Positions 27,439 to 40,476 are shown, numbered from the stretch's first letter. The stretch is 64,000 nucleotides of DNA from a virus (IMGVR_UViG_3300021961_011268:1-64000); one strand, 5' to 3'. Made by a program: numbers and translations. The notes: generated from the sequence alone by a model not told the origin.

Positions 27439-27927
27439 ATGACAAATGAAATTAGAAATAAAGAAAATCAAGTAATTTTCACTTATGAAGAAAAATGCTT
27501 AAATCAAGCTAACTTAGTTGGTGCTAACTTAGTTTGGGCTAACTTAGTTGATGCTGACTTATCTGGTGCTAACTTATCTGGGGCTAACTTACATGGTGCT
27601 AGCTTATTTAGGGCTGACTTATCTGGGGCTGACTTATCTGAAGCTGACTTAGTTTACGCTAATTTAGCTGGGGCTAATTTATCTGGCGCTAATTTATCTG
27701 GGGCTAACTTAGTTGGTGCTAACTTATTTATGGCTGACTTATCTGGGGCTGACATATCTGGGGCTGACATATCTGGTGCTGACTTATTTATGGCTAATAT
27801 AGGTGGTATTACGGCAAATGCCGATCAATTAGTAGCATCATTTAAAATTCCAATTGATTTGATTTTAGATATTCAGCCTGATATTCGTATTGTTGAAGAA
27901 GAATATCGTGATACTGAGGAAAAATAA
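27439..27927 (+). CDS. Pentapeptide-repeat protein
   Basis: Residues about 22-125 consist of some 20 consecutive A(N/D)LxG-type pentapeptides (for example [19 protein letters not shown]), which fold as a right-handed quadrilateral beta-helix. Such proteins can mimic B-DNA (Qnr, MfpA bind gyrase) or serve as scaffolds. The C-terminal 35 residues are an acidic non-repeat tail ([14 protein letters not shown]). The coding DNA is itself a tandem repeat, prone to copy-number change. Behind a strong early-type promoter, so a host topoisomerase or takeover target is conceivable. Confidence 0.92.
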
Positions 27928-29417: not shown

Positions 29418-29425
29418 TATAAATA
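29418..29425 (+). promoter_or_regulatory. TATAAATA motif before the curli-type operon
   Basis: Exact late octamer, but only 5 bases before the ATG at 29431, so transcription would start at or inside the coding region. It may serve a leaderless transcript or the second gene; it may also be chance. Confidence 0.3.
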
Positions 29426-29430
29426 TATCT

Positions 29431-29724
29431 ATGGATATATTTGGACTTATCTCTGAAGTTGGAGCTCCCATAGCTGCAATGATAGCAATGGGGTTTTTTA
29501 TATTTCTCGTTATTCGACAAATGCTTGAGGGTATTATCGAACGAGTGAATACTCTTACTATGTTTTGTAATAGTCTAGAAAACCGTGCAAGAACAATGTC
29601 AAATGAAATGATTAAGATTGATCTACTTGTTTCAAGTGCTCTTGATCTAAGACCTGATATTGATAGAATTGCACGAGCAGAAAACTTTGTAGAAGATAAA
29701 AAAGTGGATGTAAGAAGAGATTAG
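29431..29724 (+). CDS. Holin-like membrane protein with cytoplasmic coiled coil, copy 1
   Basis: N-terminal transmembrane segment (ISEVGAPIAAMIAMGFFIFLV) followed by a polar helix (SLENRARTMSNEMIKIDLLV) and a basic/acidic tail. It is clearly related to the next gene product (ISEYGFPVVAMVGLGYFIYF): same ISExGxP start, same segment length and a shared downstream helix with Met/Asp pattern. The BhlA/UviB-type holin-like family has this build. Being the first genes of the CsgF/CsgG operon, the pair could form or regulate an inner-membrane channel. Function is inferred. Confidence 0.6.
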   Translation: MDIFGLISEVGAPIAAMIAMGFFIFLVIRQMLEGIIERVNTLTMFCNSLENRARTMSNEMIKIDLLVSSALDLRPDIDRIARAENFVEDKKVDVRRD

Positions 29725-30012
29725 ATGGAAGAAAGTTTTAATATTATTAATTTGATTAGTGAATATGGTTTTCCTGTTGTTGCAATGGTTGGTCTTGGAT
29801 ATTTTATTTATTTTATATGGAATTTTGTTAATAAAAATGTTGATCCTGAAATGCATAAAATGCATCTTGCTCTTATTCGAGTAATTGATCAAACAAGAAT
29901 GCTCGATCAAGATATGATAAGATTGCAGCAAAAAGTCAATGTTGTATTAGAATATAGAGAAATATATGGAAGAGCACATCAAAAAACTAAAAAGAAAAAA
30001 GAGGATGAATAA
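29725..30012 (+). CDS. Holin-like membrane protein with coiled coil, copy 2
   Basis: Directly adjoins the previous stop codon. One membrane segment (YGFPVVAMVGLGYFIYFIW), then a coiled-coil-like helix (LIRVIDQTRMLDQDMIRLQQ) and a highly charged Lys/Glu end (KTKKKKEDE). Paralog of the 29431 product. It overlaps the CsgF gene start by 8 bases, tying it to the secretion genes. Whether the two form hetero-oligomers is unknown. Confidence 0.6.
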   Translation: MEESFNIINLISEYGFPVVAMVGLGYFIYFIWNFVNKNVDPEMHKMHLALIRVIDQTRMLDQDMIRLQQKVNVVLEYREIYGRAHQKTKKKKEDE

Positions 30013-30508
30013 ACTTATCGATAAATTTATCATATTAATTATGGTATCTTTTTGGATTTTTATTATTTGCATTTCAATAGCAAATTCAACTGAGTTGAAT
30101 CATAAATTTAAATCACCATCATTTAATGGTATTAATACGAGTGCTCATTATTTGACAATTGAGAATCAAATGAAATCTCGTAAAGATAAGATTCAATCAG
30201 ATATTGAAGCTGAATTGTTGGCAAAACAAAGAGAAGAAGAAAATACTTTATTGTCAAAATTTATTCGTAATTTTGAATCAAGAGTATATTCACAGTTAAG
30301 TAAACAATTAGTTGATCAATTATTTGATGGAACTGGATCCTCATTTGGATCATTTGTTCTTGAAGGAAGTACAATTACATATCAAATACAACCTTGTGAT
30401 GATATGATAAGATGCAATATTGGCGATGAAGTAATTGTTATGGATATTGTTGATGAAGCCGGCTCGAGCACTAATATAACAATACCGATAGGTGCTGGAA
30501 CTTTTTAA
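30005..30508 (+). CDS. csgF: CsgF-like curli assembly protein
   Basis: Start ATG 30005 gives a signal peptide (LIDKFIILIMVSFWIFIICI, cut near ANS). The mature start TELNHKFKSPSFNGIN matches the CsgF N-terminal sequence that in E. coli inserts into the CsgG pore (pattern YxFxNPSFGGNP). The C-terminal half is beta-rich (GSTITYQIQPCDDMIRCNIG with two cysteines). In bacteria CsgF links CsgG to the growing curli fibre. Here it precedes csgG by 9 bases, whereas bacterial order varies. 167 aa versus 138 in E. coli. Confidence 0.8.
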   Translation: MNKLIDKFIILIMVSFWIFIICISIANSTELNHKFKSPSFNGINTSAHYLTIENQMKSRKDKIQSDIEAELLAKQREEENTLLSKFIRNFESRVYSQLSKQLVDQLFDGTGSSFGSFVLEGSTITYQIQPCDDMIRCNIGDEVIVMDIVDEAGSSTNITIPIGAGTF

Positions 30509-30517
30509 GGTAGTAAA

Positions 30518-31333
30518 ATGCGTATATTCTTAAAAATTGTATTGTATACAATTATATTATCAATTATTTCAGGATGCGCATTGAATAACTTTAAATATGA
30601 TAAGATGCGACAAGATATGCCTATTGAGGAAATATTACCTACGCATGATGCGTTAAAGTCAATAAATCCTCCTGATAGAATGCCAGTTGTCGCGGTATAT
30701 CAATTTGATGATAAAACGGGTCAAAGAAAACAGGTTGATTCGTCTGCTTTATTTAGCACAGCAGTTTCACAAGGAGCTGAAACAATGTTGATTGATGCAT
30801 TGAAAACTGCTGGAAATGGACAATGGTTTCGAGTTGTTGAAAGAATAGGAATAGATCATTTAGTAAGAGAAAGACAAATAGTAAGAAGCACAAGACAAGC
30901 TTATAATGATAATGAAGAATTGGCACCAATGCTTTTTGCGGGTATGATACTTGAAGGTGGTATTATTGGATATGATACAAATATAGAAACAGGTGGAGCA
31001 GGAGCAAGGTATTTAGGAATAGGTGGACAAACACAATATCGTAAGGATTTTATTACTGTTTCTTTAAGAGGAATAAGCACACTAACTGGAGAAGTATTAT
31101 TAAATGTCCAAACGTCAAAAACAGTATTATCGGTGTCAAATGGATTTGATGTTTTTAAATTTGTTGATTTAGATACAAAACTAATAGAAGTAGAAAACGG
31201 CATGACGGAAAATGAAAGTATAACTCGATCGACAAGATCATGCATTGAAGCAGCTGTTTTAGCACTTATTAAACAAGGTGATTCTCGTAACCTTTGGAAA
31301 ATACGAGATAAAAAGGATAAAAGTAATGAATAA
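30518..31333 (+). CDS. csgG: CsgG-like curli secretion channel lipoprotein
   Basis: Outer-membrane nonameric export pore. Lipobox ISGC with Cys20; body matches CsgG: PVVAVYQFDDKTGQRKQ, LFSTAVSQGAETMLIDALK, WFRVVERIGIDHLVRERQI, EGGIIGYDTNIETGGAGARY, GIGGQTQYRKDFITVSLRG, GEVLLNVQTSKTVLS and the C-terminal LWKIRDK. 271 aa versus 277 in E. coli. In the constriction loop Phe56 is kept (ALFSTAV), whereas the Tyr51 and Asn55 positions appear to be changed to Asp and Leu, so gating may differ. CsgE, the usual adaptor, is not encoded nearby. The next gene starts 8 bases before the stop. Confidence 0.95.
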   Translation: MRIFLKIVLYTIILSIISGCALNNFKYDKMRQDMPIEEILPTHDALKSINPPDRMPVVAVYQFDDKTGQRKQVDSSALFSTAVSQGAETMLIDALKTAGNGQWFRVVERIGIDHLVRERQIVRSTRQAYNDNEELAPMLFAGMILEGGIIGYDTNIETGGAGARYLGIGGQTQYRKDFITVSLRGISTLTGEVLLNVQTSKTVLSVSNGFDVFKFVDLDTKLIEVENGMTENESITRSTRSCIEAAVLALIKQGDSRNLWKIRDKKDKSNE

Positions 31334-32090
31334 CATATTAGAACTAATAACGTTTATTATATGGTTTATTATCTCTATTGTTATTATGACATTTATTTTG
31401 GGATATGCAAGTGCGCATGCGCAAACTTCATCAGATAATGAGATATATTTAAATCAAAGTGGAGATACAATCACTTTAAATATAAATCAAATAGGATATG
31501 GAAATAAATTTGGTGGAAGTGTTTCATCAGGTGTTGTAGCAACAGATCTAACTTTGACTGGTTCATCACTTGATATTGATTTGACTCAAGATGGTAATAG
31601 TAACCAATTTCTAGGTAGTATTATTTTTGATAATAGTTTCCTTGATTTTACGACTACTGGTGATACCAATATTCTTACATTAGATATTGGAAGCACTGGA
31701 TCTGCAGATGATTCAAATCTTTTCTTGGATTTTACGGGAGATAATAATACACTTGATCTGAATATTGGAAGTGTAGCATCTGCCGAAAGATTAGATTTTG
31801 ATTTAAACGTAATTGGTGGATCAAATATCTTTGATGTTGATATTGAAGCTGATGATGTGACATGGCAAGTTGATATTACTGGTTCAGGAAATGATTTCCT
31901 TTCAAATATCAAGGATGGTGCATATAACTCATTGACTATTGATTTTACTGGGGATAATGGTGATATTGATATTAATCAATGGTCAGGTTCATGTCCACAA
32001 GGTGTAACATCTTGCTTTGGAGTAATTGATGCAACGATTAATTCAGATAATGCAATTATACAAATTAACCAAAAAGATACTGTCGAATAG
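31326..32090 (+). CDS. Curlin-repeat-like exported protein, 254 aa
   Basis: ATG 31326 overlaps the csgG stop. Signal sequence with a long hydrophobic stretch (IIWFIISIVIMTFILGY) cut near SAHAQ. The mature chain is Gly/Asn/Asp/Ser-rich beta sequence with curlin-type Gln-Gly-Asn spacing at the start (YLNQSGDTITLNINQIG, then NKF) and looser repeats afterwards (TQDGNSNQFLGS, TGDNNTLDLNIGS, TGSGNDFLSN). No aromatic-rich globular domain. A likely secretion substrate of the CsgG pore, analogous to CsgA/CsgB, but with fewer ideal repeats. Two Cys near the C-terminus (SCPQGVTSCFG). Confidence 0.7.
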   Translation: MNNILELITFIIWFIISIVIMTFILGYASAHAQTSSDNEIYLNQSGDTITLNINQIGYGNKFGGSVSSGVVATDLTLTGSSLDIDLTQDGNSNQFLGSIIFDNSFLDFTTTGDTNILTLDIGSTGSADDSNLFLDFTGDNNTLDLNIGSVASAERLDFDLNVIGGSNIFDVDIEADDVTWQVDITGSGNDFLSNIKDGAYNSLTIDFTGDNGDIDINQWSGSCPQGVTSCFGVIDATINSDNAIIQINQKDTVE

Positions 32091-33201
32091 TCTTATATAT
32101 TTTTTAATATTCTTTTCTCAAGGTTATGCCGCTGTTGAAAAGAATATTGGAAATATTATTGAAGTATCTGGAACAAATGGTATTACATCAATTGATGGTG
32201 TAACTAAGGTTGGCACTAAAGATTTAGATATCTATTTTCGTGATACTATTGAAACAGTTCAAGGTAAAATGAAAATTGATTTTGTTGATGAAACAAAATT
32301 GTCATTAACAGAGCATTCTAAAGTCCTTATTGATGAATACTATTTTGATCCAAATCCATCAAAATCAAAAATGACTATGAGTTTTATTCAAGGAACGGCA
32401 AGATTTGCAACTGGTAAATTAGGTCTTGTTCCAAAGGAGAATATTATTATTAATACACCAACAGCAGTTGTTGGCGTTCGTGGTACAGATTTCACAACAA
32501 CAGTAGATGAACTTGGTCGATCATTAATTATTCTATTGCCAGATGAGGAATGTACAATTGATGGTGATTGCAATCCATCAGGAGAAATTACTGTTACAAA
32601 TGCAGGAGGCGTTGTCACATTGACTGAAGCATATTCAGCAACAATGGTTACATCCTTTGATAATGCTCCAATGCAACCAGTAATACTTGAAAATATTACC
32701 ATTAACATTATTGATAATATGTTTATTGTGACACCACCAAACGAAATAGAACAATCAATAGAGGAAGAAGAATCTAATAATCGGCCATCATATGATTTAC
32801 TCGACTTTAATGATTTGGATATAAATTTATTAAGTGAAGATTGGGATGAAGAAGATCTTTCGATAAATGAAGTGGATATTAATTATCTTGATGGTGATTT
32901 TTTACAAAATATTCTTGATGATTTGCTATTACAACAAGATTATTTAAAAGAATCAAGTCAATCAACAAGTTATGATATACAAGGCACAAATATTGGTTTT
33001 GATTCACAAACAAACTATTATACCTTTATTGACATTGGTGAGGGTACAATTCGATTTTATCGAATCGTTGGTGGTATAATAAATATAGTAACAAAAATAG
33101 ATAGTAACATAACATTGGATACTGAAAATGATGGTAAAAAGAACTTTATTACTAATGGTGATGGTCAATCTGTTGTTCTTACAATCCGCCAAGGCAATTG
33201 A
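32029..33201 (+). CDS. Exported FecR-domain protein
   Basis: N-terminal hydrophobic segment (SNSLIYFLIFFSQGYA) as signal peptide, then GNIIEVSGTNGITSIDG and a FecR barrel with the diagnostic NTPTAVVGVRGTDFTT motif; the C-terminal 150 residues are very acidic (EEEESNN, DLLDFNDLDINLL). FecR domains in the periplasm pass signals or scaffold surface assemblies. Start at ATG 32029 is uncertain, as it overlaps the previous gene by 62 bases; TTG 32026 is just upstream. It overlaps the next curlin-like gene by 74 bases. In bacteria FecR domain proteins are often next to CHASE2 cyclases, as here. Confidence 0.8.
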   Translation: MQRLIQIMQLYKLTKKILSNSLIYFLIFFSQGYAAVEKNIGNIIEVSGTNGITSIDGVTKVGTKDLDIYFRDTIETVQGKMKIDFVDETKLSLTEHSKVLIDEYYFDPNPSKSKMTMSFIQGTARFATGKLGLVPKENIIINTPTAVVGVRGTDFTTTVDELGRSLIILLPDEECTIDGDCNPSGEITVTNAGGVVTLTEAYSATMVTSFDNAPMQPVILENITINIIDNMFIVTPPNEIEQSIEEEESNNRPSYDLLDFNDLDINLLSEDWDEEDLSINEVDINYLDGDFLQNILDDLLLQQDYLKESSQSTSYDIQGTNIGFDSQTNYYTFIDIGEGTIRFYRIVGGIINIVTKIDSNITLDTENDGKKNFITNGDGQSVVLTIRQGN

Positions 33202-33484
33202 TCAAGATCAGAATAGTGTTTTTATTAATCAAATAGGTGATGATCTTAATTTGAATCTTAATCAAACTGGATATAATAATAATATTGAGATTGACACAGA
33301 TACGAATAGTAATAACATTTCAGTAGATCAAACAGGTTCTGGCCATGATGTAATATTAAATTTATATGGAACACAACCAAATAATGTTTCTGTTTCACAA
33401 TCAAGTACCACACCTCAAAGTTATTCAATTGAAACATATTGTATTACTATCGGAGGCTGCTCTATTTCAGTAGATCAACAATGA
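33128..33484 (+). CDS. Short curlin-repeat-like exported protein, 118 aa
   Basis: Starts with ATG ATG at 33128/33131 inside the FecR gene. Signal peptide RTLLLMVMVNLLFLQSAKA, then VFINQIGDDLNLNLNQTGYN, NNISVDQTGSGHDVILNL and NNVSVSQSS, which are good curlin-type repeats (N-Q-x-G-x4-5-N). It is shorter than the 31326 product and ends with a C-x7-C pair (CITIGGCSISVDQQ). By analogy with CsgB it could be a nucleator. It overlaps the cyclase start by 4 bases. Confidence 0.7.
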   Translation: MMVKRTLLLMVMVNLLFLQSAKAIDQDQNSVFINQIGDDLNLNLNQTGYNNNIEIDTDTNSNNISVDQTGSGHDVILNLYGTQPNNVSVSQSSTTPQSYSIETYCITIGGCSISVDQQ

Positions 33485-35331
33485 AATATATCACATCAAT
33501 ATTCTCTTGCATTGCAGTCCTTATACTAGGATTATTTTTAAAAGTCACAGATCCATATATTATTGAAAGACTTCGTTTAATTAATTTTGACCAATATCAA
33601 CAATTAATACCACAACATAATAATAAAGATATAACACTTATTAATATTGGTGAGGAATCATTAAATCAATATGGTCAATGGCCTTGGCCTCGTTCTATTT
33701 TTGCTCAAGTCATTTCTGATTTAAGATCAGCAAATGCTGGAATTATTGTATTTAATATTATGTTTCCTGAGAGCGATAGATTTGGACAAGATGAAATTTT
33801 AAAATCATGGATAGATGGTAATGGTATTATTCTATCACAAACTGGTTCGCCAAAAGGAAGATCAGATTCAGCACCGTTTGTTGGCACTGTTGTTCTTGGA
33901 AGTGGTGATCCATATCAGTTTGTAGATGAATATCCAGGTATTGTTACAAATATAGAAGAATTTGAATCTTCTGCTTGGGGTGTTGGTGTATTAAACTCAA
34001 AACAAGAAATTGATAATGTAACAAGAAGAATGCCATTATTGATTCAATCAAATAATCAATTATATCCATCATTAAGTATGGAAATACTGAGAGCAACGGT
34101 TGAAGAAAAGTCATATACAATAAAAGTAGAACCAACTGGTATTGAAAATTTTAGAATACCTCCATATGAACCAATACAAACTGACGCGTCTGGTTCAATA
34201 TGGATTAATTGGTCAAATAAATTTAAATCATACGAATATGGTAAAGACACTCTGCCAGATCTAAATGGTAATACGGTGATTGTTGGTCTTACTGCAGAAG
34301 GTCTTGTTCCATTAGTACCTACACCTCGTGGAGCTCTTTATCCACACGAGTTACAAGCTTCAGTATTAGCGGATCTAATGGACTCAAGCACATCAATTAC
34401 TCGACCAAATTGGATGCCTATTGCTGAGATTTTATTAATTACAATTACAAGTATACTACTTCTTCTTTCTGTATATTATTTACCAATAGTATATTCGCTT
34501 GTATGTTCATTGTTTTTATTATCAATAAACATGTTAATACCGACATATCTATGGATGGAATCATTTTATTTGATGGATATGTCATTTGGTATAATCTTAA
34601 CAGTTATTCTTTTTGCACATTCAAGTTTTAATAATTTCTATAAGCAATTTAAATTACGACAACAAATTAAGAAACAATTTGAACACTATCTAGATCCAAG
34701 ACAGGTGAAGATACTACAGAAAAATCCTGGGTTATTGAAACTTGGTGGTGAACGAAAAGAAATGACTTATTTGTTTATGGATATTATTGGCTTTACACCA
34801 ATATCAGAATTCTATAAGAACAAGAATGACCCTGAAGGTTTAGTTGAATTAGTGAATGAATTCCTTGATGAGATGACAAACATTATATTGAAGAATGGTG
34901 GCATGATCGATAAGTTCATGGGAGACTGTATCATGGCAATATTCAATGCACCGATCGATATGCCTAATCATGCTGAGATGGCTATTAAGTCTTGTATCGA
35001 AATCGAAGACAAAGTCAAAGAACTGAAAGCCAAATATAAAGAACGTGGTTTACCTGATATCAATGTCGGAACAGGAGTCAATACCGGTACGGCAATCATC
35101 GGTAATATGGGATCAACAACAAGATTCGACTTTAGTGTGATAGGCGATGCGGTGAACTTGGCAGCAAGACTTGAAGCAACTGCTGGACGTGGCGATTACA
35201 AGAAATATCCTACAATATATTCTTCTATGACAAAAGAACAATTGCCTGATTCAATCAAGAGTAAACATATCGGTGATATCAAAGTGAAGGGAAAAGAAGA
35301 CGTAATTGAAATATATACTATTTCTTCTTAA
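33481..35331 (+). CDS. CHASE2-domain class III adenylate/guanylate cyclase
   Basis: Start ATG 33481 (ATGA overlap). Residues 1-21 are a membrane anchor; about 30-310 form a periplasmic CHASE2 sensor (QWPWPRSIFAQVISDL, FNIMFPESDRFG); about 313-380 hold three membrane helices; from 420 is the cyclase: GGERKEMTYLFMDIIGFT (Asp434), KFMGDCIMAIF (Asp482), FDFSVIGDAVNLAARLE (Asn559, Arg563). The Lys426/Asp550 pair fits ATP rather than GTP. All catalytic metal and transition-state residues are present, so it should make cAMP. The catalytic part is less AT-rich than the sensor part. Ends 14 bases into the convergent minus-strand gene. Confidence 0.93.
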   Translation: MKYITSIFSCIAVLILGLFLKVTDPYIIERLRLINFDQYQQLIPQHNNKDITLINIGEESLNQYGQWPWPRSIFAQVISDLRSANAGIIVFNIMFPESDRFGQDEILKSWIDGNGIILSQTGSPKGRSDSAPFVGTVVLGSGDPYQFVDEYPGIVTNIEEFESSAWGVGVLNSKQEIDNVTRRMPLLIQSNNQLYPSLSMEILRATVEEKSYTIKVEPTGIENFRIPPYEPIQTDASGSIWINWSNKFKSYEYGKDTLPDLNGNTVIVGLTAEGLVPLVPTPRGALYPHELQASVLADLMDSSTSITRPNWMPIAEILLITITSILLLLSVYYLPIVYSLVCSLFLLSINMLIPTYLWMESFYLMDMSFGIILTVILFAHSSFNNFYKQFKLRQQIKKQFEHYLDPRQVKILQKNPGLLKLGGERKEMTYLFMDIIGFTPISEFYKNKNDPEGLVELVNEFLDEMTNIILKNGGMIDKFMGDCIMAIFNAPIDMPNHAEMAIKSCIEIEDKVKELKAKYKERGLPDINVGTGVNTGTAIIGNMGSTTRFDFSVIGDAVNLAARLEATAGRGDYKKYPTIYSSMTKEQLPDSIKSKHIGDIKVKGKEDVIEIYTISS

Positions 35332-35620
35332 TAGCGTCAGCACCAAAGAATGCAGACACAAGAACTGCAATTGACGCAAAATATGTTGGTGCAATATCGG
35401 CAATAAGTTCAGCTGCTTTTTCCATTCCCATTAATGAAGTTAAAGCAATACCTATTGGATATACTAATAGTCCAATCAATGAGAACCATGCCATTTTACG
35501 AATAGCATCACGTTGAGCGTCTTGATCTTCAAGTTCTTTACGTTTAAACTCAAGATGCATTTGTACTTCTTCTTCAGATATGTGACCATCGCCATTTAAA
35601 TCTACTGGTTTATCAGACAT
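35318..35620 (-). CDS. EF-hand membrane protein, 100 aa
   Basis: N-terminal EF-hand loop DLNGDGHISEEE (Asp7, Asn9, Asp11, His13, Ser15, Glu18) followed by a helix and two hydrophobic segments (FSLIGLLVYPIGIALTSL and PTYFASIAVLVSAFFG), ending in KKK. One calcium site in a two-pass membrane protein. I recall related proteins in marine T4-like phages. Its stop lies 14 bases inside the end of the cyclase gene on the opposite strand. A calcium-responsive holin or sensor is conceivable but unproven. Confidence 0.7.
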   Translation of the reverse strand: MSDKPVDLNGDGHISEEEVQMHLEFKRKELEDQDAQRDAIRKMAWFSLIGLLVYPIGIALTSLMGMEKAAELIADIAPTYFASIAVLVSAFFGADAIKKK

Positions 35621-35647: not shown

Positions 35648-35655
35648 TATTTATA
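35648..35655 (-). promoter_or_regulatory. Late-type promoter TATAAATA (minus strand)
   Basis: TATTTATA on the plus strand, 28 bases upstream of the EF-hand gene start, and divergent from the sigma-70-like promoter at 35665. Confidence 0.5.
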
Positions 35656-37815: not shown

Positions 37816-38709
37816 ATGTCATTTGAAAATTTAAAACGCAATCGAAATAATATTGCAAAACTTGTTGAAGAAGCAAATAAAGTTGGTGGCACAAATACTC
37901 GTCAAGAAGACGAAAGAATGTGGAAACCGACAGTTGATAAGGCAGGTAATGGTTATGCTGAAATTCGCTTCTTACCTCAAGTTGATGGAGAAGATCTACC
38001 ATGGGTACAATATTGGGACCATGGTTTCAAAGGTCCATCTGGTCTATGGTATATTGAAAAATCACTCACATCAATTGGGCAAAATGATCCTGTATCAGAA
38101 TCAAATAGCGTTCTCTGGAATTCGGGTATTGAGTCCGATAAAGCAATTGCTCGTGATCGTAAACGTAGACTACATTATGTTTCGAATATTATGGTTGTCT
38201 CTGATCCAGGCAATCCACAAAATGAAGGCAAAGTCTTCATGTATATGTATGGTAAAAAGATCTTTGATAAGATTATGGATATTATGCAACCAGCATTCCA
38301 AGATGAAAAACCGGTTAATCCATTTGATCTTTGGGAAGATGTTACATTCAAAGTGAAAATCCGTCAAGTTGAAGGATATCGCAATTATGATAAATCTGAG
38401 TTTGTAAGAAATGACGTATTCCGCGATGATGACCATCGTGAAGAAGTTTATAATCAAGTTCATAAACTTTTTGAATTCGTTGACCCTAATTCATATAAAT
38501 CATATAATGAATTGAAAGCAAAACTCAATCAAGTTCTTGGTGTTGAAAATAATCTTTCAGTTCGTGAAATGGATCAACTTGGTGAAGCAACTCCTCCAAC
38601 TCCACAAGTTGAAAAAGTAGCGAAACCGGTGACTGCTGAAGAATATTCATCAATGGAAGATACTGATGAAGATACATTTCAATATTTTGCAAAACTAGCG
38701 AATAGTTAA
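37816..38709 (+). CDS. 32: Single-stranded DNA-binding protein gp32, cysteine-free
   Basis: Coats single-stranded DNA in replication, recombination and repair. The N-terminal cooperativity region LKRNRNNIAKLVEEA (LAST-like basic stretch), the OB-fold core (YAEIRFLPQVDGEDLPWVQY, VFMYMYGKKIFDKIMD) and the acidic C-terminal tail (SSMEDTDEDTFQYF) are as in T4 gp32 (297 versus 301 aa). No cysteine occurs anywhere, so the zinc ribbon of T4 gp32 (His64, Cys77, Cys87, Cys90) is missing; His at WDHGF remains. Own promoter and strong terminator, as expected for a highly expressed gene. Confidence 0.93.
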   Translation: MSFENLKRNRNNIAKLVEEANKVGGTNTRQEDERMWKPTVDKAGNGYAEIRFLPQVDGEDLPWVQYWDHGFKGPSGLWYIEKSLTSIGQNDPVSESNSVLWNSGIESDKAIARDRKRRLHYVSNIMVVSDPGNPQNEGKVFMYMYGKKIFDKIMDIMQPAFQDEKPVNPFDLWEDVTFKVKIRQVEGYRNYDKSEFVRNDVFRDDDHREEVYNQVHKLFEFVDPNSYKSYNELKAKLNQVLGVENNLSVREMDQLGEATPPTPQVEKVAKPVTAEEYSSMEDTDEDTFQYFAKLANS

Positions 38710-38729
38710 AATTTCTTTCATAGAACTAA

Positions 38730-38755
38730 GGGAGAGCTTCGGCTCTCCCTCTTTT
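38730..38755 (+). terminator. Strong terminator with UUCG tetraloop after gp32
   Basis: GGGAGAGC TTCG GCTCTCCC (38730-38749) then TCTTTTT. Eight GC-rich pairs and an extra-stable tetraloop, in otherwise AT-rich DNA. It separates the plus-strand early block from the convergent minus-strand late genes. Confidence 0.93.
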
Positions 38756-38784
38756 TAACGATTATATTATTATCAATTTTTTAA

Positions 38785-40476
38785 TTAGTAGGCCATTGCT
38801 TCGTCATAACCAAAGGTATTTCGTAAACTTGCAATAGGCATAGAAGCTCCATTTAAATTTGTTGTTTGTTGCGAATTATTAACAACCTGCGTTGATGCAT
38901 CTTGGGGTGCTATTATTACATTATTTCCATTTGCAGATTGCTCAGCGTCTCTATTAGCTTGTGCTAATTGACTTGCTTTATTAACATCTCTTGCTATTAA
39001 CGCTGCTTCAGTGGCAAGACTTAGTGCTGTTCCTACACCGGGGAACGTTGAAGCAATACCTCCACCTAGCTCTAAAGCTGCTCCAACAAAATCACCCTTT
39101 ATAGCTCTTTTGACAGCGAATCCTGAACCCATTATTAAGCCAAGGCCAGGAAGTTTTTTAAAAAAGCCTTTAGCTAATCCTTTTGCGGCTGCTTCACCAG
39201 TTTCCTTTGCAGCTACTACTGCGACTTGTTTACCGGCTGTTTTTGCAGCTACGTTTGTAGCAGTTTGTGCTGCACCTTTAACACCTTTCCCTACTGTTTT
39301 TGCTACACCAATTGCACCTTTCCCTACTGTTTTTGCTACACTAATTGCACCACTTACAATTCCCTTCAATGCTTTAAATCCTTTAAGAAGTTTATATGCA
39401 ATAAAAGTTTCGATCAATAATTCGAGGCCAGTCGATATCACATCGCCATGCTCTTTAAAAAAATCTACGATTCGAGTGAACGTTGATACAATACTTTCTT
39501 TTAAGGATACTAGATCATCTATAAGTTTCCCAGATTTTAAATATTCTATTAAATTTTTAAAAGCATCTGACTTAATAAACGTATTGAATCCTAGTACTAG
39601 TGCTATCAATCCAGCACCTTTAAGAGCAGTCTTAATAAAATCCCAAAGAGTTTCAGCGCCGGCTTTGATTTTTTCACCAACAAATTCCACCCCTTTACCA
39701 GGAGCCTTTTTAACCTTTTCTAGTAAAGATTCTTTATTAGCTAGTTTTTCAATCTTAGCTCTTTTCGCGTCTGCTTTAGCTGCAGCTAGTATTTCTTTTC
39801 TTCGCTCGGCAACTTGTTTTTTAAAATCTTCTTTTTCTTCTTTTCTTTGTTTTATACGGTCTGCTCGCTGTTCCCAAAATTCGAATTTACGCATTTCATG
39901 TGCGACGACCATTTCAGTTAACGTGAATTTGCCTTGTTCATATATACTTTTAAGAGTTCCTAATAAACCTTTTCTTTGCTCTTGAGCTTGCTTTTGAGCT
40001 TGCTCTTGAGCTGCTCGAGCTTTTCGTCCATCCGTTAATAACAGTTGAGGGACATCATTAATAGCAGCTGGTAGAGCTAATAATGCAGGCTTTAGTTGTG
40101 ACACGACTTCATTAGAAAAATCTGTTGTTATTTGAATTAATTTGCCTATATTATCTTGTACGGCTTTATGAGTTAGGCTATCTTTTTCTGTAATTTTTAA
40201 TATATCGCCTATATTATTTTGTACGGCTTTATGAGCTAGGCTATCTTTTTTTACAATTTTTAATATAGTTTTATCATGGTCTTTTATTTCTTTATTATGT
40301 TTTTCTAGCTTTTCGTTATATTCGTTCTGAGTATCAAGTTTAGAGCTAATATCATCATGTCTTTTAGAATCATCTTCATCAGTAGATAACTTCGCAATGG
40401 CTTTATTTAAACCTTTGTTTTCCTCTTGTTTAAATTCTTCTTTCTCTTTACTTCGAAGAGATTTTACGTCTTCCAT
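38785..40476 (-). CDS. Tape-measure-like / hub structural protein (gp29-like position), 563 aa
   Basis: A long helical protein: charged coiled-coil N-terminus (SKEKEEFKQEENKGLNKA), two tandem 21-residue units (KDSLAHKAVQNNIGDILKI, KDSLTHKAVQDNIGKLIQI), Ala/Lys helices, then a hydrophobic Gly/Ala region with GVAKTVGKG repeats and membrane-active segments (ALKGAGLIALVLGFNTFI), ending in Gln/Asn-rich sequence. This is what tape-measure or injected proteins look like, and its size is close to T4 gp29 (590 aa). It is the last gene of the minus-strand hub cluster. Identity as gp29 is by size, composition and position. Confidence 0.55.
   Translation of the reverse strand: MEDVKSLRSKEKEEFKQEENKGLNKAIAKLSTDEDDSKRHDDISSKLDTQNEYNEKLEKHNKEIKDHDKTILKIVKKDSLAHKAVQNNIGDILKITEKDSLTHKAVQDNIGKLIQITTDFSNEVVSQLKPALLALPAAINDVPQLLLTDGRKARAAQEQAQKQAQEQRKGLLGTLKSIYEQGKFTLTEMVVAHEMRKFEFWEQRADRIKQRKEEKEDFKKQVAERRKEILAAAKADAKRAKIEKLANKESLLEKVKKAPGKGVEFVGEKIKAGAETLWDFIKTALKGAGLIALVLGFNTFIKSDAFKNLIEYLKSGKLIDDLVSLKESIVSTFTRIVDFFKEHGDVISTGLELLIETFIAYKLLKGFKALKGIVSGAISVAKTVGKGAIGVAKTVGKGVKGAAQTATNVAAKTAGKQVAVVAAKETGEAAAKGLAKGFFKKLPGLGLIMGSGFAVKRAIKGDFVGAALELGGGIASTFPGVGTALSLATEAALIARDVNKASQLAQANRDAEQSANGNNVIIAPQDASTQVVNNSQQTTNLNGASMPIASLRNTFGYDEAMAY
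40145..40270 (-). repeat. Two tandem 63-bp units within the tape-measure-like gene
   Basis: The units begin near 40145 and 40208, differ at a handful of positions and keep frame (21 codons each). They encode the two KDSL(A/T)HKAVQ(N/D)NIG repeats. Confidence 0.75.

Follow-up and report, generated by a model that had tools for sequence, protein, structure and literature searches.

A predicted late curli-type secretion cassette with a candidate FecR-CHASE2 sensing branch in a T4-like marine phage

An eight-gene operon conserved across marine phages

We carried out a computational analysis of a curli-type gene cassette in a viral genome from IMG/VR (IMGVR_UViG_3300021961_011268), of which we analysed bases 1-64000 of a 66,084-base record (henceforth the window). 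The cassette consists of eight open reading frames (ORFs) with overlapping ends, all on the plus strand at 29431-35331: two small paralogues (h1 and h2), csgF, csgG, a curlin-like gene, fecR, a second curlin-like gene and a cyclase gene with a CHASE2 domain (Table 1). ORF calls and Pfam searches recovered all eight overlapping genes that an initial annotation, made from the sequence alone, had placed there, and likely starts were moved to downstream ATGs behind the overlapping stops for csgF (30005), curlin 1 (31326), fecR (32050) and the cyclase (33481). The source phage is marine and T4-like, with a baseplate gp6-type protein nearest to that of C48C1, followed by those of HTVC008M (a SAR11 phage), Mosig and Melnitz. 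Because all operon proteins except the two curlins have good matches in PHROGs (function unknown), these families are already represented in phage databases.

The gene set itself is not new, and the window cassette joins a published kind. The same order was reported in SAR11 podo- and myophages (Wittmers 2022; PMC9599517), where the genes were annotated as 'histidine kinase', CsgF, CsgG, CsgA/B, FecR, CsgA/B and adenylate cyclase. The pelagiphage type VIII secretion system (T8SS) module of HTVC008M (gp11-gp19) has the same genes in the same order, i.e., small protein(s), CsgF, CsgG, curlin, FecR, curlin and adenylate cyclase. That study also reported metatranscriptomic expression of the module and the presence of the cassette at all 65 GOV2.0 stations. 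The CsgGF portion was described in two further studies (Zaragoza-Solas 2020, PMC7029224; Buchholz 2022, PMC9004378), the latter focusing on CsgGF as a lysis-timing pore in Melnitz, a methylophage of OM43 with the same gene order as the window operon. The novelty that the initial annotation implied for the complete set therefore falls away. We did not find in these earlier accounts of the module the bacterial block, the curlin-type tail of FecR, the cysteine pairs of the curlins, the late promoter at h1 and the lack of support for the 'histidine kinase' label of h1/h2.

We assessed conservation in 80 viral loci found by CsgG, judging gene order where the contig was long enough. The order h-h-csgF-csgG-curlin-fecR-curlin-cyclase recurred with few exceptions: FecR came next wherever the contig reached, and the curlins and cyclase nearly so. 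The condition that the initial annotation set for reading the genes as separate acquisitions is therefore not borne out. Since this order is found in dozens of IMG/VR contigs as well as in the isolates HTVC008M and Melnitz, it is not a chance arrangement. The exceptions were two loci missing the second curlin (L297 and L298, with the h pair inverted and elsewhere in L297) and three with no cyclase inside the flank (L262, L275, L281). When loci were found by h1 instead, csgF was next in all whose contig continues; among those found by the cyclase, L069 and L074 had no csg genes inside their flanks and L070 had a cyclase inverted relative to the other genes. A single curlin lies between FecR and the cyclase in 109 of 112 loci, which rules out extra curlin genes at that position. 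Median pairwise ratios of nonsynonymous to synonymous substitution rates (dN/dS) were 0.07 for the h family (the most constrained), 0.10 for csgF, 0.12 for csgG, 0.12 for curlin 1, 0.11 for fecR, 0.15 for curlin 2 and 0.12 for the cyclase, meaning that every gene, both substrates included, is under purifying selection.

The cassette is also carried by very large viral contigs (L245, 250,519 bp; L247, 216,820 bp; L248, 339,794 bp), and in L247 and L248 several kilobases of added genes precede the cyclase. The related phages Mosig and C48C1 had no match to CsgG or h1. C48C1 (OQ984149.1, 112190-114915) is collinear with window positions 37816-40476 around the genes for a single-stranded DNA-binding protein and the baseplate hub, and with the cassette missing there it is a natural empty-site relative. 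One further csgG match, in a record named 'Salmonella phage S.Kent' (OR851715.1), was set aside: the record is unverified and 1.5 kb long, and it resembles host csg DNA and not the phage module.

Table 1. Features of the cassette in the window
Feature	Position	Strand	Description
T4-type late promoter box TATAAATA	29418..29425	+	5 nt 5' of the h1 ATG
h1	29431..29724	+	97 aa; N-terminal membrane segment and coiled region; phrog_18771
h2	29725..30012	+	95-aa h1 paralogue, ~22% identical, same PHROG
csgF	30005..30508 (ORF from 29966)	+	signal peptide and CsgF domain (PF10614, 1.1e-11)
csgG	30518..31333	+	outer-membrane secretion pore lipoprotein; PF03783, 3.2e-50; IISGC lipobox (by eye)
Curlin-like substrate 1	31326..32090	+	signal peptide, beta-rich repeats, C-terminal Cys pair, tail IQINQ
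FecR-domain secreted/periplasmic protein	32050..33201	+	signal peptide, FecR domain (PF04773, 1.9e-10), acidic linker, C-terminal beta domain, tail VVLTIRQGN
Curlin-like substrate 2	33128..33484	+	118 aa; Curlin_rpt (PF07012, 2.4e-4); C-terminal Cys pair, tail ISVDQQ
CHASE2-transmembrane-class III nucleotide cyclase	33481..35331	+	CHASE2 2.6e-41, Guanylate_cyc 3.1e-18

Promoter, pore, substrates and sensor proteins

Of 107 distinct regions 5' of h1, 47 contain an exact TATAAATA box <=60 nt from the gene (vs. 1.3% of random 60-mers), with its position peaking at -13 (28 of the 47 loci). By contrast, just 0-4 of ~110 loci had the box 5' of csgF, csgG, fecR or the adenylate cyclase gene. The same box stands ahead of baseplate and other late genes in the window, where its overall frequency is at chance (14 seen vs. 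14.2 expected) and only its position 5' of h1 is informative. With the box at the first gene and not inside the operon, the cassette is predicted to be a T4-type late transcription unit, and, if spacing is as in T4, a box at -13 would start the transcript at or near the h1 ATG, making the mRNA leaderless or nearly so. Late timing is more in keeping with a role at the envelope or in release than with early metabolic support.

The h1/h2 proteins, which within an annotated phage collection occur only in cassette-bearing phages, are ~97 residues long, with a single membrane segment at the N terminus and a coiled region. We found no HisKA or HATPase domain in 28 h members at E<=1 and, given also their small size, reject the published reading of these proteins as histidine kinases. 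They are possibly holin-like, as suggested by their size, the single membrane segment and a weak PHROG match of h2 (phrog_4898, holin, E 0.0077); four of the 28 members also have a weak match to YvrJ.

CsgG aligned with the known CsgG structure (PDB 3x2r, E 4e-47 over 255 aa), retaining Phe56 of the constriction while Tyr51 and Asn55 are substituted; CsgF exceeded its Pfam cut-off and had no match in the PDB. Homologues of CsgG and CsgF, together with curlin repeats, are common to the cassette and to csgBAC/csgDEFG of E. coli. The cassette differs in the addition of FecR, the CHASE2 cyclase and the cysteine pairs of its curlins, and no csgD or csgC was recognised among its genes.

Curlin 1 of the window has no Pfam match of its own, Curlin_rpt being matched by 14 of 26 family members (best 1.3e-5), and in the PDB its family profile best matches the CsgA fibril of E. 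coli (8enq, E 0.0039). In the curlin 2 family 9 of 10 members match Curlin_rpt, and the window copy is short (118 aa vs. a family median of ~244 aa). The two families are homologous (hhalign 99.6%). Exactly two cysteines fall within the last 45 residues in 108 of 116 and 102 of 106 members (210/222 overall), a C-terminal pair seen in just 7 of 76 ordinary alphaproteobacterial curlins.

The FecR protein has a FecR domain and no other Pfam domain in all 26 members scanned, none of which has an N-terminal anti-sigma region by Pfam; the N terminus resembles a signal peptide instead. The modelled FecR domain matched the folds of PupR (6ovk, E 9e-4) and of a 'cell surface anchoring domain' (5ix9, 31% identity over 62 columns), which we take to be the retention part of a Marinomonas ice-binding adhesin. 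The domain is followed by an acidic linker modelled at low confidence and, at 323-381, by a small beta domain; its final strand follows the pattern IxIxQ. This end was found in 115 of 116 distinct phage FecRs and in 115 of the 2,923 other ORFs of these loci, among which some unflagged curlins remain. It was also present in both FecRs of the Caulobacteraceae copies described below; of 25 FecRs without a link to curli, one has it (L091, probably by chance). Similar strands end curlin 1, curlin 2 and E. coli CsgB (AIRVTQR). Because almost all phage FecRs and only one unlinked FecR end in this way, the protein is probably a fibre or pore partner and not an iron anti-sigma factor. Its FecR-domain fold is shared with the cell-surface signalling proteins FecR/PupR, but the phage protein lacks their N-terminal anti-sigma domain and no ECF-type (extracytoplasmic function) sigma region 4 (PF08281) was found in eight phage records; its output would be the cyclase rather than a sigma factor. 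As a separate observation, fecR genes lie directly 5' of CHASE2 cyclase genes in bacteria without curli (among L087-L164, notably L104, L122, L126 and L143), which suggests that the two form an old bacterial signalling pair.

In the cyclase, the residues at the catalytic positions known from CyaB are D434, K478, D482, S552, N559 and R563. The catalytic residues are intact (allowing S, T or D at 552) in 103 of 109 homologues. Compared with CyaB, Lys478 and Ser552 are suited to recognising adenine, and the enzyme is predicted to make cyclic AMP (cAMP). The remaining six homologues (L083, L241, L242, L247, L264 and L269) read D-K-D-D-S-R, with Ser in place of Asn and Asp in place of Ser; they include the cyclase of Melnitz, and the enzyme may be inactive or altered in some phages. 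Separately, a family of 32 small low-GC alphaproteobacterial genomes (0.9-2.0 Mb) encodes 1-9 proteins each that bind cyclic nucleotide monophosphates (cNMPs), many for genomes of this size; with 32 members the family is too small to be equated with Pelagibacteraceae.

Two neighbouring genes are recorded here for completeness. The ORF just 5' of the operon (27439-27927) has many A-D/N-L-x-x pentapeptide repeats (by eye). On the minus strand, a gene at 35318-35620 is convergent with the cyclase gene, overlapping its stop by 14 nt; the 100-aa product, a candidate holin or calcium-linked membrane protein, combines an EF-hand-like loop with two likely membrane segments. The gene has its own TATAAATA box (35648-35655, minus strand); no such minus-strand box behind the cyclase was seen in 115 related loci.

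A six-gene copy in Caulobacteraceae

A genome scan with the cyclase identified two contigs of Caulobacteraceae metagenome-assembled genomes (MAGs; L085 and L150) that carry csgF-csgG-curlin-curlin-fecR-cyclase. They share a block of 5.9 kb (5094-11048 in L085) at 87% nucleotide identity, set in unrelated flanks that are bacterial in both cases (TonB receptor, S9 peptidase and glycosyltransferases vs. acyl-CoA dehydrogenase, amidohydrolase and phosphoesterase), and the block occurs in only 2 of 7 genomes of the carrier genus. Since these blocks hold six genes only, with h1/h2 absent, the core moves as a unit of six genes without need for h1/h2.

The CsgG tree places the two bacterial copies within the phage clade, in a group with phages L297, L298 and L300 (support 100/99) that joins the larger phage group at 100/98. 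In the cyclase tree their partners are L297 and L298 (100/99), within a clade of phages and Caulobacteraceae (100/100). This fits a transfer from phage to bacterium, or several transfers between phages and an unsampled bacterial lineage, in either direction, both carriers being MAGs. Ordinary alphaproteobacterial curli operons (36 loci) have the csgF-csgG-curlin order in common with the phage cassette but form their own CsgG clade, and neither FecR nor a CHASE2 cyclase was found within 8 kb of them.

These results amend the published account of the module (PMC9599517) in three respects. It labelled the small proteins as histidine kinases and FecR as an iron regulator, leaving CHASE2 unmentioned, and the present analysis points otherwise on both labels. 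It also stated that the FecR and cyclase parts do not occur in bacterial T8SS operons, which the Caulobacteraceae blocks contradict.

A probable secretion system with a proposed sensing branch, and rival readings

The reading towards which we lean is that the cassette encodes a curli-type secretion system expressed late, and that its FecR-CHASE2 branch acts as a sensor, reporting the state of the envelope or fibre as cAMP. Conserved order, purifying selection and joint mobility of the six core genes agree with the view of the initial annotation that the genes form one system with its own substrates and sensor. Secretion, fibre formation, FecR-CHASE2 coupling, cAMP output and purpose are here read from sequence, and the steps would be as follows. 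The cassette would be transcribed late from the T4-type promoter, on a transcript that also encodes the small, phage-specific membrane proteins h1/h2. CsgG and CsgF would form an outer-membrane pore, whose cargo would be the two Cys-pair curlins, assembling on the infected cell as a fibre or coat. FecR would be exported to the periplasm, where it would most likely contact fibre subunits or the pore through its curlin-type strand and signal their state to CHASE2 in the inner-membrane cyclase; the cAMP produced would then act on a host receptor. Candidate purposes are surface coating, aggregation, a superinfection block and lysis timing. A more specific version, which we put forward only tentatively, has FecR as a tethered reporter: its C-terminal strand would join the fibre or sit in the CsgGF pore while the retention-like FecR domain stays in the periplasm, and CHASE2 would read secretion or contact and convert it into cAMP.

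Several results weigh against this reading. A CsgG pore, CsgF and curlin-repeat substrates, which together mark a curli-type system, are all present, but CsgE (PF10627), which is typical and not essential, was found in none of 8 phage records and 2 bacterial genomes, with E. coli as a positive control; this removes the support for the 'gated' channel of the initial annotation. The AlphaFold2 model of curlin 1 is all-beta (mean predicted local distance difference test score 87), yet a Foldseek search with it returned nothing significant (best E 0.25; CsgA fibril E 4.2). It is therefore sequence that carries the curlin claim. The curlin-type motif at the end of FecR is short, and a reading of the whole C-terminal domain as curlin was rejected (hhalign probability 0.6%), resemblance being limited to the terminal strand. 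A search of eight phage records for cNMP-binding domains found none, and with no recognisable phage receptor any cAMP must therefore act on one of the host. Finally, OM43 cells infected by the cassette-bearing Melnitz showed no clumping (PMC9004378), which argues weakly against aggregation; Melnitz-like cyclases have lost the catalytic Asn.

The main rival, which we regard as unlikely, is a pore-first lysis device close to the proposal of Buchholz 2022: CsgGF would be a late outer-membrane channel, with h1/h2 as holin-like partners in the inner membrane, and would depolarise the envelope or make it leaky and so time lysis, with the fibre proteins as secondary plugs or leftovers. The late promoter, the two small membrane proteins that always lead the phage operon, the lack of a detected CsgE gate and the synteny argument of PMC9004378 are all in its favour. 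It does not sit well with the retention of both curlins under purifying selection and with a conserved Cys pair, nor with the weakness of the holin assignment, and the bacterial copies, which keep curlins, FecR and cyclase without h1/h2, indicate that the core works without lysis genes.

We consider it improbable that FecR and the CHASE2 cyclase are a separate signalling pair riding along with the secretion genes, reprogramming the host via cAMP on envelope stress and independently of any fibre. Such a pair would be expected from bacteria without curli in which fecR is directly 5' of a CHASE2 cyclase gene (L104, L119, L122, L126, L130, L143 and L146). The curlin-type strand is nevertheless confined to curli-linked FecRs (but for 1/25 unlinked), the place of fecR between two curlin genes is fixed in phage loci, and the pair moves together with csgFG in the bacterial block.

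An uptake channel, in which an ungated CsgG pore admits large nutrients or cofactors during infection (proposed in PMC7029224 and PMC9599517), would be in keeping with the failure to find CsgE, but it leaves the curlins, CsgF and the FecR tail unexplained and a late promoter would act late for nutrient supply; we hold this reading to be very improbable. That the genes are passengers or decaying, unrelated acquisitions without joint function could be argued from the absence of the module in Mosig and C48C1 but is scarcely credible, separate acquisition being contradicted by an order fixed in nearly all loci, with FecR and the cyclase beside csgGF in relatives, by purifying selection throughout and by joint mobility.

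The analysis corrects two published labels (histidine kinase and iron regulator) and the statement that bacterial curli operons have no FecR or cyclase. The late promoter, the FecR tail and the mobile bacterial copy make what was a gene list testable in terms of interactions, timing and function outside the lytic cycle. If true, the tethered FecR would represent cell-surface signalling in which a cyclase replaces the sigma factor, used late by phages and traded among bacteria as a mobile cassette. Cassette-bearing phages are widespread in the ocean, and from the cassette streamlined hosts would gain two things that they lack, a fibre at the surface and an input into second-messenger signalling.

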